Assembly: GCF_003439925.1 (NCBI RefSeq)
Contig: NZ_QQRR01000001.1
Location: forward strand, 1,612,001-1,676,000
Source of the DNA: Haloprofundus halophilus
GTDB taxonomy: Archaea > Halobacteriota > Halobacteria > Halobacteriales > Haloferacaceae
Length of the DNA: 64,000 bases
Reading direction: 5' to 3'
A program made the position numbers and the translations under genes. Position 1 is the first letter of the stretch. Each line of letters opens with the position of its first letter. The notes below the pieces were generated by a model that was not told where the DNA came from, did no database searches, and saw only the letters and a list, made by a program, of their open reading frames with translations. Shown piece after piece: positions 36,753 through 39,261 of the stretch.

Positions 36753-36910
36753 CCGGTCGTCGGCCGCAGAGACAACTCTCACGACGATGCAACCTGCGGT
36801 ATGGGCAACAGGTGTCGACACTCCGACGTATGCAATCCATCGCGGACGCCGGGACGCTGAGCATCTGAGCGTACTCGTCGACACGCTTTTTCCCTCTCCC
36901 CATCTACTCG
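36753..36910. other. Gap between rio1 and the trpS leader ORF
   Basis: About 160 bp with no gene. The only promoter-like feature is CGCTTTTTCCC (36885-36894) with a T5 run (36887-36891) about 20-27 nt upstream of the leader ATG at 36911, a weak but plausible TATA/BRE position for a leaderless leader-peptide transcript. An open 71-codon frame from 36787 overlaps this region, but its composition is not protein-like. Confidence 0.5.
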
Positions 36911-36994
36911 ATGACGATGAACGCCGCTCCCTGGCGCTGGTGGTCGCCCGCCTCGGGAGCGGACAGTCCCGCCGTCGTCGTCGCCGCGGCGTAA
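36911..36994 (+). CDS. Trp-rich leader peptide ORF upstream of trpS
   Basis: A 27-codon ORF (ATG at 36911; in-frame ATG also at 36917; TAA at 36992-36994) reads MTMNAAPWRWW then SPASGADSPAVVVAAA. Trp codons are at positions 8, 10 and 11, i.e. TGG CGC TGG TGG, three Trp within four codons; Trp is the rarest residue in haloarchaeal proteins. It ends 84 nt before the trpS ATG. A CGCCCGC (36945-36951), right after the Trp codons, is complementary to GCGGGCG (37010-37016), just past the stop. The sequence is what a Trp-sensing leader peptide would look like; regulation itself is inferred. Confidence 0.75.
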   Translation: MTMNAAPWRWWSPASGADSPAVVVAAA

Positions 36995-37078
36995 CCCGGT
37001 GACCCCGACGCGGGCGCTCACTCCGTTCTTCTCGCTCGCACCGCGTTCGACTACCACGACGAACTAATCCACCAGCAG
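36945..37078 (+). promoter_or_regulatory. Candidate attenuator / translational control region of trpS
   Basis: From the end of the Trp codons to the trpS start. CGCCCGC (36945-36951) can pair with GCGGGCG (37010-37016) to form a 7-bp stem over the leader's stop. GTTCG and CGAAC around 37044-37064 offer a second small stem nearer the trpS start. A pyrimidine run with Ts (TCCGTTCTTCTC, 37022-37033) follows the first stem. A ribosome stalled at the Trp codons would cover the first arm and change the fold. Seen: complementarity and order. Inferred: that it regulates. Confidence 0.4.
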
Positions 37079-38233
37079 ATGCCCGATTTCACCGTCACAC
37101 CGTACAGCGTCGAGGGCGAGGTCGACTACGACCGCCTCCTCGACCAGTTCGGCGCAGACCGACTGACAGACGAACAGTTATCGACCTTCCCGCAGCCGCC
37201 GCACCCCCTGCTCCGCCGCGGCGTGTTCTACGCCGGCCGCGACGTAGACCGGTTCACGAGCGCCGCCAGTCGCGGCGAGACCGTCTCGGTCGTGACCGGC
37301 CGAGGACCGTCGGGGCCGATGCATCTCGGCCACGTCCTCCCCTTCTACTTCGCGAAGTGGCTGCAGGCGGAGACGGGCGCGTACGTCTACGTCCCGCTCT
37401 CCGACGACGAGAAGTACTTCTCGAAGGACCTCTCCTTCGAGGAGATTCACGACCACACGCGCGAGAATCTCCGCGACCTCGTCGCGGTCGGGTTCGACCC
37501 CGAGCGGACGCGCTTCGTCGTCGACACCGCCGACGCCGACGTACTCTACCCGCTCGCCGCCGAGTTCGCCAAGGAGATCACGCCCGCGACGGTCGACGCG
37601 ACCTACGGCGACCCGCCGAACGTCGGACTGGGGTTCTATCCGGCGATGCAGGCGACGCATCTCCTGTTGCCCCAACTGCTCCGCGGCCGTCACCCGACGC
37701 TCGTCCCCATCGCCGTCGACCAGGACCCGCACATCCGCGTCTGCCGCGACATCGCCGGAAAACAGCGCTACGACGTGGGGAAGCCGGGCGCACTACTCTC
37801 GAAGTTCCTCCCCCGACTGGGCGGCGGCGGCGGTAAGATGAGCAGTTCGGGCGACGACCCGAGCATCTACCTCACCGACGACCGCGAGACCGTTCGAGAG
37901 AAGGTGTCGAAATACGCCTTTTCGGGCGGTCGGTCGGACATCGACGAACACCGAGAGAAGGGCGGCGACCCGGAGGTCGACGTGGCGTACCAACTGCTGT
38001 TCTCGTTCTTCGAGTCGGACGACGAGACCGTCGAACGACTCGCGCGCGAGTACCGCACCGGGGAGTTGCTGAGCGGGGAGATGAAGCGGTACGCCGCCGA
38101 CCGAATCGCCGACTTTCTGGAGGCGCACCAGTCGCGGCGGCCCGAAGGCGGGATTCGAGAGTCCGTCGAACCGTACCGTCTGACCGAGGACGAACGAGCG
38201 AAGGTGCGGCCGGACGTGTTCGGCGGAGTGTAG
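37079..38233 (+). CDS. trpS: Tryptophanyl-tRNA synthetase
   Basis: 384 aa. HIGH-type motif GRGPSGPMHLGHVLPFYFAK, KMSKS motif GGGKMSSSGDDPS and the archaeal/eukaryotic-type TrpRS core (PLSDDEKYFSKDLSFEEIH, GFYPAMQATHLLLPQ, VDQDPHIRVCRDIAGK). It charges tRNA-Trp. It sits directly downstream of the Trp-rich leader ORF, and a drug/metabolite exporter-type gene follows after 101 bp. Haloarchaea can carry two TrpRS genes; whether this is the only copy cannot be seen here. Confidence 0.96.
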   Translation: MPDFTVTPYSVEGEVDYDRLLDQFGADRLTDEQLSTFPQPPHPLLRRGVFYAGRDVDRFTSAASRGETVSVVTGRGPSGPMHLGHVLPFYFAKWLQAETGAYVYVPLSDDEKYFSKDLSFEEIHDHTRENLRDLVAVGFDPERTRFVVDTADADVLYPLAAEFAKEITPATVDATYGDPPNVGLGFYPAMQATHLLLPQLLRGRHPTLVPIAVDQDPHIRVCRDIAGKQRYDVGKPGALLSKFLPRLGGGGGKMSSSGDDPSIYLTDDRETVREKVSKYAFSGGRSDIDEHREKGGDPEVDVAYQLLFSFFESDDETVERLAREYRTGELLSGEMKRYAADRIADFLEAHQSRRPEGGIRESVEPYRLTEDERAKVRPDVFGGV

Positions 38234-38334: not shown

Positions 38335-39261
38335 ATGAACCGCGCGCGGACGGTCGGGTTGTTTCTCCTCCTGCCGCTGCTGTTCGGGGCGGCGTTCCCA
38401 GCTATCAAAGCCGGACTCGACTACGTCCCGCCGCTGCTTTTCGCCGCGGGGCGCTACCTGCTGTCGGCGCTCCTGCTTCTCGGCTTCGCCGCCGCGACGA
38501 GCGACGCGTGGCTGCCGCGGACGCGAGACGACTGGGTAGCCGTCTTCGGCGCGGGCGTCTTCTTCATCGGCGGTACCGGTCTCCTGTACCTCGGCCAGCA
38601 GTACACCACGAGCGGCGTCGCCGCCATCATCTACAGTCTCATCCCGATTCTGACGCCGCTCATCGCGTGGGGGCTGCTACCGCACGAGAGCTTCTCACGG
38701 CGGTACGTTCTGGGGCTGTTCGTTGGGTTCGTCGGCGTCGCGCTGGTGATTCAGCCCGACCCGTCGAACCTGTTCGGCGAGTCGGTCCTCGGCGAGGGAC
38801 TCGTCCTGTTGGCGGCGACGAGCGTGACGCTCGGCAGCGTACTCATCCGCCGCTACCAGCCGACGATGTCCGTCGTCGCGCTCACCGGCTGGGCGATGGT
38901 TCCCGGCGCGTTGCTACAGCTGGCGTTCAGCGCCGCCATCGGCGAGTCGCTCGCGGCGGTTCGCCCGACGGCGACGGCCATCTTGCTCCTGCTCTACCTC
39001 GCGGTGGTCGCCAGCGGCGTCGGCTTCGCCGTCTACTTCTACCTCCTGGAGACCATCGGGCCGCTGGAAGTGAACCTCATCTCGTATCTCATCCCCGTCG
39101 TCGCCGTCACCATCGGGTGGTTCTTCCTCGACGAAGCCATCACGACGCTCACGCTCGTCGGGTTCGGCGTCATCGTCGTCGGGTTCGCGCTCCTGCGCGG
39201 CGAGGACCTCGCGCCGATACTGCGTCGGCGACTCCGGAACCGGAGACGTCCGGCCGCGTGA
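38335..39261 (+). CDS. DMT superfamily (EamA) transporter
   Basis: 308 aa with ten hydrophobic helices in two EamA halves (first: VGLFLLLPLLFGAAFPAIKA..., second: LVLLAATSVTLGSVLIRRYQ ...). GGTGLLYLGQQYTTSGVAAI and NLISYLIPVVAVTIGWFFLD are typical family segments. EamA members export metabolites, including amino acids and their precursors, in bacteria. It follows trpS (101-bp gap) on the same strand, which makes an amino-acid-related substrate a reasonable guess only. Confidence 0.88.
   Translation: MNRARTVGLFLLLPLLFGAAFPAIKAGLDYVPPLLFAAGRYLLSALLLLGFAAATSDAWLPRTRDDWVAVFGAGVFFIGGTGLLYLGQQYTTSGVAAIIYSLIPILTPLIAWGLLPHESFSRRYVLGLFVGFVGVALVIQPDPSNLFGESVLGEGLVLLAATSVTLGSVLIRRYQPTMSVVALTGWAMVPGALLQLAFSAAIGESLAAVRPTATAILLLLYLAVVASGVGFAVYFYLLETIGPLEVNLISYLIPVVAVTIGWFFLDEAITTLTLVGFGVIVVGFALLRGEDLAPILRRRLRNRRRPAA

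Follow-up and report, generated by a model that had tools for sequence, protein, structure and literature searches.

We propose that the auxiliary tryptophanyl-tRNA synthetase (TrpRS) gene trpS2 of Haloprofundus halophilus is controlled by a ribosome-mediated attenuator in its leader, with termination as the output, and we assign to this reading a probability of about 0.7. The leader lies in the window, i.e. the whole 64,000-nucleotide stretch of DNA that was analyzed (Table 1). Transcription would begin at or adjoining the ATG of a 25-codon, probably leaderless upstream open reading frame (uORF). With ample charged tRNA-Trp, the ribosome would pass the Trp codons of this uORF, hairpins P1 and P2 would form, and segment C would stay exposed as a terminator or termination-factor site, switching trpS2 off. 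With charged tRNA-Trp scarce, the ribosome would stall on the Trp codons, covering arm 1 of P1 and reaching with its 3' edge almost to arm 2; the freed arm 2 would then pair with segment C, so that P2 grows into a single long hairpin in which the tract is hidden, switching trpS2 on.

Table 1. Features of the trpS2 leader and gene, in window coordinates.
Feature	Position	Strand	Evidence
Core promoter of the leader: BRE-like element 36880-36883, T-rich TATA position 36887-36891, TA 36905-36906	36880..36906	+	Position-specific base composition, 77 leaders aligned on the uORF start
Leader uORF MNAAPWRWWSPASGADSPAVVVAAA*, probably leaderless	36917..36994	+	Conserved in 77 loci; frame-preserving indels between arm 1 and the Trp codons
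Arm 1 of hairpin P1 (CCGCTCCC)	36924..36931	+	Pairs with 36955-36962; covariation
Trp codons TGG-CGC-TGG-TGG (candidate sensor)	36932..36943	+	At least two Trp codons in 75/77 leaders
Arm 2 of hairpin P1 (GGGAGCGG); alternative partner of segment C	36955..36962	+	Covariation; arm-2 allele changes on the tree
Hairpin P2, GC-rich, AGT...GCT, 54 nt; uORF stop codon (36992-36994) in the loop	36965..37018	+	Length constancy, consensus energy, double changes
Segment C, pyrimidine/U-rich tract directly 3' of P2	37019..37034	+	Conserved GCTC[AC]CT start; duplex and stall-folding tests with controls
trpS2, auxiliary tryptophanyl-tRNA synthetase, 384 aa	37079..38233	+	NCBIfam NF008927, Pfam PF00579, solved TrpRS relatives

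The uORF, its promoter and the gene behind it

The product of trpS2 scores above the family cutoff of NF008927, matches PF00579 and has solved TrpRS structures among its relatives. Since the same genome also encodes a second, longer TrpRS (~34% identical to the trpS2 product), the gene behind the leader is, judged from sequence, an auxiliary archaeal-type TrpRS beside a housekeeping TrpRS. The upstream region of the longer TrpRS of this genome holds no such leader. Downstream of trpS2, on the same strand, lies a gene that reads as an EamA/DMT-like transporter (38335-39261, +).

A preliminary description of this DNA had pointed to a 27-codon ORF at 36911-36994 (MTMNAAPWRWWSPASGADSPAVVVAAA*) with Trp at codons 8, 10 and 11, ending 84 nt before the trpS start at 37079, and to a T-rich promoter-like site upstream of it. 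Both are present as described, the latter as TTTTT within promoter elements that are conserved in 77 leaders. When these leaders are aligned, the BRE, TATA and -11 elements fall at -37..-34, -31..-26 and -12/-11 relative to the position of ATG 36917. Such spacing is what one would expect if a haloarchaeal transcript started with the ATG itself; the uORF is therefore probably leaderless, its transcript is predicted to start at or adjoining ATG 36917, and this codon is the likely start; the originally chosen 36911 is possible, and probably lies 6 nt too far upstream. Read from 36917, the uORF (MNAAPWRWW...) has Trp at codons 6, 8 and 9. Among the 77 loci, the start codon is ATG in 66 and GTG in 11.

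The Trp codons were expected to be conserved in related haloarchaea, and they are: 75 of 77 leaders before a TrpRS gene carry at least two of them in frame. In these leaders TGG stays while the codon in between varies (CGC, CGT, CAG, CAC, TCA, TGC and others), and some leaders contain in-frame duplications such as WQWRW and WRWRW. Kept in this way, the Trp cluster lies far beyond chance. As the uORF calls favored frames containing Trp, we also used the distance from arm 1 to the first Trp codon, which is independent of the choice of ATG. In 68 of 76 leaders it amounts to 8, 11, 14, 17, 20, 23 or 29 nt, all 2 mod 3 over a 21-nt range; among the exceptions, most come from leaders whose arm 1 itself overlaps a Trp codon, and a few reflect wrongly chosen arms. 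Together with the promoter spacing, this preserved frame is an indirect sign that the uORF may be translated.

Hairpins P1 and P2 and the predicted switch

P1 encloses the Trp codons, with arm 1 upstream of them. The top three covarying column pairs of the entire leader fall in this hairpin, 95.9% of its cells are paired, and it shows 64 double changes, a level reached in none of 500 shuffles; sliding one side by a single column drops the pairing below 50%. On the trpS2 protein tree, arm 2 must have changed its allele at least eight times. RNAalifold missed P1 on the MAFFT alignment owing to gaps in the loop, and the structure was supplied by hand. The comparative data hence make the candidate Trp-codon sensor and P1 well supported.

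The stem originally suggested, 36945-36951 x 37010-37016, does consist of complementary sequences (CGCCCGC and GCGGGCG), yet it is paired in 50.0% of cells across 76 leaders, at the same chance level as shuffles (50.3%) and slid controls. It is replaced by P1, around the Trp codons, which is where the anticipated conservation with compensatory changes was found. As such, the idea of a Trp-leader attenuator of trpS withstood the comparative tests through its conserved Trp codons, the frame-preserving indels upstream of them and a covarying stem, while the choice of the stem and, probably, of the start codon did not. Three further points had escaped the preliminary description: the auxiliary nature of this trpS paralogue, the probable lack of a 5' leader in front of the uORF, and the likely role of P2 with the pyrimidine tract as the output.

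Nearly all leaders have a P2 of 53-55 nt. The consensus energy of P2 is -27.2 kcal/mol, and in an alignment itself fitted to that structure, 16 of the 20 pairs in the model show double changes. Its loop motif CNTMA, held between G-C pairs, is kept even where it is not the stop codon. Within segment C, 37022-37030 is able to form 9 bp with 36955-36963, including three G-U pairs, and this pairing extends P2.

We folded the leaders with their 5' part blocked, as by a ribosome with the first Trp codon in its A site. Under this stall, arm 2 is predicted to leave P1 (pairing falls from 0.82 to 0.00) for segment C (a rise from 0.05 to 0.72), a shift predicted in 73 of 74 leaders, with the 3' edge of the modelled ribosome a median of 5 nt short of arm 2. 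The high switch score is partly a base-composition effect: shuffled C gives 0.55 and C from other leaders 0.68, versus 0.72 for the cognate segment. Only 4 of 5000 permutations, uncorrected for phylogeny, gave arm 2-segment C duplexes at least as good as the cognate ones. Altogether, the folding models make the arm 2-segment C helix likely and the structural switch of arm 2 a prediction.

Distribution among haloarchaea

We compared 79 loci obtained by protein similarity and 17 from whole genomes. The leader is conserved across about eight haloarchaeal families, and nearly all haloarchaeal trpS2 genes among these loci have an upstream ORF bearing WRW or a close variant, e.g. MQSAPCGWRWRVRGADSFAAAA in Halobacterium salinarum DSM 3754 (L097:2815-2883). 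In the non-haloarchaeal relatives (L102-L109), no such upstream Trp ORF was found. Plasmid-borne trpS2 copies (L009, L057, L054) have a degenerate leader with a single Trp (VSTSRETDERRWR*) and intact P1 arms.

A covariance model built from 76 leaders and searched against 391 genomes of the class detects the element in 159 of them, in 49 of 86 genera. The same 391 genomes contain trpS2 in 135 cases, and a narrower model (arm 2, P2 and C) places the element 37-256 nt upstream of 128 of these 135 genes. On 80 genomes that were negative in, or outside, the first search, the narrow model gave only five matches, all five in genomes that carry trpS2. Before other synthetase genes, no copies turned up with the P2/C model. 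Taken together, sequence comparison supports the uORF, its Trp codons, P1, P2, the placement of the promoter and the association with the gene. In some trpS2 genes without a leader (G290, G397, G240, L064), a promoter-like AT-rich site lies ~25-32 nt before the gene's own start. The weak matches L111 and L112, elsewhere in the genome that contains the window, look like chance matches within coding sequence.

A further 31 elements precede the housekeeping trpS1 (25), a broken trpS2 (1), GNAT acetyltransferase genes (4) and an ABC exporter gene (1). The 25 before trpS1 occur in genomes where trpS2 was not found, and every one of their leaders has at least one Trp codon, most of them two or more and some a single one. 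Haloarchaea without trpS2 that have the leader before the housekeeping long TrpRS include L164-L183, L186, L188, L208, L226 and L227. Since one genus (g46) carries the leader on trpS2 in some genomes and on trpS1 in others, the leader has changed gene. The broken trpS2 is cut off after ~60 codons behind an intact leader (L184:218-700), and its genome (G243) has an intact trpS2 with leader elsewhere.

The P1/P2/C scaffold with covarying arms also stands directly before the RimJ/RimL-like GNAT acetyltransferase genes (L213:1501-1648(+), L214:1501-1657(-), L207:1501-1654(+) and L187:3297-3450(-)). Because the leader peptides there have 0, 0, 0 and 1 Trp (the one Trp in L187), the Trp cluster goes with trpS. 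Before the ABC exporter gene (MSTSENPLVKLLREYARPEAANFGLG...; scaffold at L185:3489-3646(-)), the leader reads MMSATGLGPVLWHGSTVADSALA, with one Trp.

Output, rival readings and known systems

The intergenic termination sites of Haloferax volcanii consist of T stretches with a C at the end, and in vivo a hairpin brought 59% of transcripts to termination (PMC7237163). Termination in Methanococcus involves the binding of aCPSF1 to U-tracts (PMC8716108). RNA polymerase and ribosomes co-purify in Haloferax, from which coupling was argued, and transcription and translation interact in haloarchaea (PMC8576121). Segment C is composed of 33% T and 43% C, compared with 13% T just downstream. Because of this T-rich segment, together with the findings on terminators, U-tracts and co-purification, we favor termination and regard a translational output as its main rival; a GC-rich P2 with a T-rich tract behind it would suit termination. 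We infer that the ribosome stalls in vivo, that the output is termination and that its sign is the one given above.

Under that main rival, the same Trp-codon stalling would be sensed, and the structures would govern initiation or reinitiation at trpS2, or cleavage and hence mRNA stability. The spacing from P2 to the trpS2 start is indeed fairly constant (median 57 nt with corrected start codons), and after P2 there is no long U run, the runs in segment C being mostly 2-3 long. None of 75 leaders shows a Shine-Dalgarno sequence before trpS2, which likewise suits this possibility. Against it, P2 and segment C stop well upstream of the start codon, whose surroundings are less structured (mean unpaired probability 0.51 vs 0.34), and the T enrichment of segment C over its flank speaks for the favored termination. 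We consider a translational or stability output unlikely, though still with an appreciable share of the probability.

Far less probable is that the ORF is incidental and the leader a riboswitch or T-box-like element, with TGG as the binding site for tRNA-Trp or tryptophan. TGG-NNN-TGG and P2 are conserved at the nucleotide level, and UGG could pair with the anticodon or the CCA end of tRNA-Trp. This reading is at odds with the indels upstream of TGG coming in threes, the in-frame duplication of the Trp codons and a start codon at the promoter-defined start. Moreover, a search of Rfam 15 at E values up to 10 gave no T-box or riboswitch match, only one unrelated chance hit, and Rfam holds no family for the leader.

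Slighter still is the chance that the leader peptide is a functional small protein acting in trans, as reported for the regulatory effects of peTrpL of Sinorhizobium (PMC7298713). A peptide is encoded in nearly all loci, often with RADS and an alanine-rich end, but RADS follows from the RNA arm and the tail is not conserved: in Halorussus a different frame runs through arm 2, and the uORFs of L010, L009 and L054 stop upstream of it. The frame is hence not fixed downstream of the Trp codons, where the conserved part is the RNA, not the peptide tail. A chance ORF, conceivable given the many spurious ORFs of GC-rich genomes and the chance nature of the originally suggested stem, is refuted by the comparative data (about eight families, covariation, gene association) and is the least probable reading of all.

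Ribosome-mediated attenuation is a bacterial paradigm that depends on the coupling of transcription and translation, and the trpS2 leader looks like an archaeal version of the bacterial ribosome-stalling Trp attenuators. We found no archaeal precedent in the open-access literature, where absence is no proof of novelty. If our favored reading is true, a Trp-codon switch in 159 of 391 haloarchaeal genomes would be a functional readout of archaeal coupling; it would also put leaderless translation to a new use and open archaeal termination to genetics. More tentatively, at somewhat below even odds, the scaffold may define a family of ribosome-sensing leaders of the haloarchaea's own: a leaderless uORF in a hairpin, with a freed arm that extends a second hairpin over a U-rich terminator tract. 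Its Trp versions, before trpS2 and trpS1, would read tRNA-Trp charging, other leader peptides before acetyltransferase and exporter genes would perhaps sense ribosome inhibitors, and the family would be the first ribosome-mediated attenuation known in Archaea.

Archaeal termination by U-tracts and aCPSF1 shares with this leader the U- or T-rich tract, here a candidate terminator, including a hairpin that terminates in vivo in Haloferax, but is not described there as a regulated, ribosome-controlled terminator (PMC8716108, PMC7237163). The enterobacterial trpL leader likewise has clustered Trp codons; its first arm lies under the stalled ribosome and its second arm, once freed, finds another partner, as proposed for the haloarchaeal leader. 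In trpL, however, the freed arm dismantles a terminator hairpin, whereas the haloarchaeal arm would extend the next hairpin and cover the tract behind it; trpL also precedes a biosynthetic operon, the haloarchaeal leader a synthetase gene. T-box leaders of Firmicutes and Actinobacteria put a synthetase gene under the control of tRNA charging, as proposed here, yet the haloarchaeal leader is without a T-box match and keeps its ORF in frame.

Vecchione and Sello reportedly studied the regulated auxiliary TrpRS of Streptomyces. Candidate attenuators precede trpS in this genus, e.g. trpS2 of S. avermitilis (PMC1262725). Compared by description, these bacterial attenuators are classical and have an intrinsic terminator, whereas the haloarchaeal uORF is probably leaderless and P2 would be kept in both states. 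In both cases a leader peptide with Trp codons precedes a TrpRS gene, together with alternative RNA structures that in haloarchaea are predicted, and the parallel extends to the gene itself, since in Streptomyces too it is a second TrpRS copy that has the candidate Trp leader.
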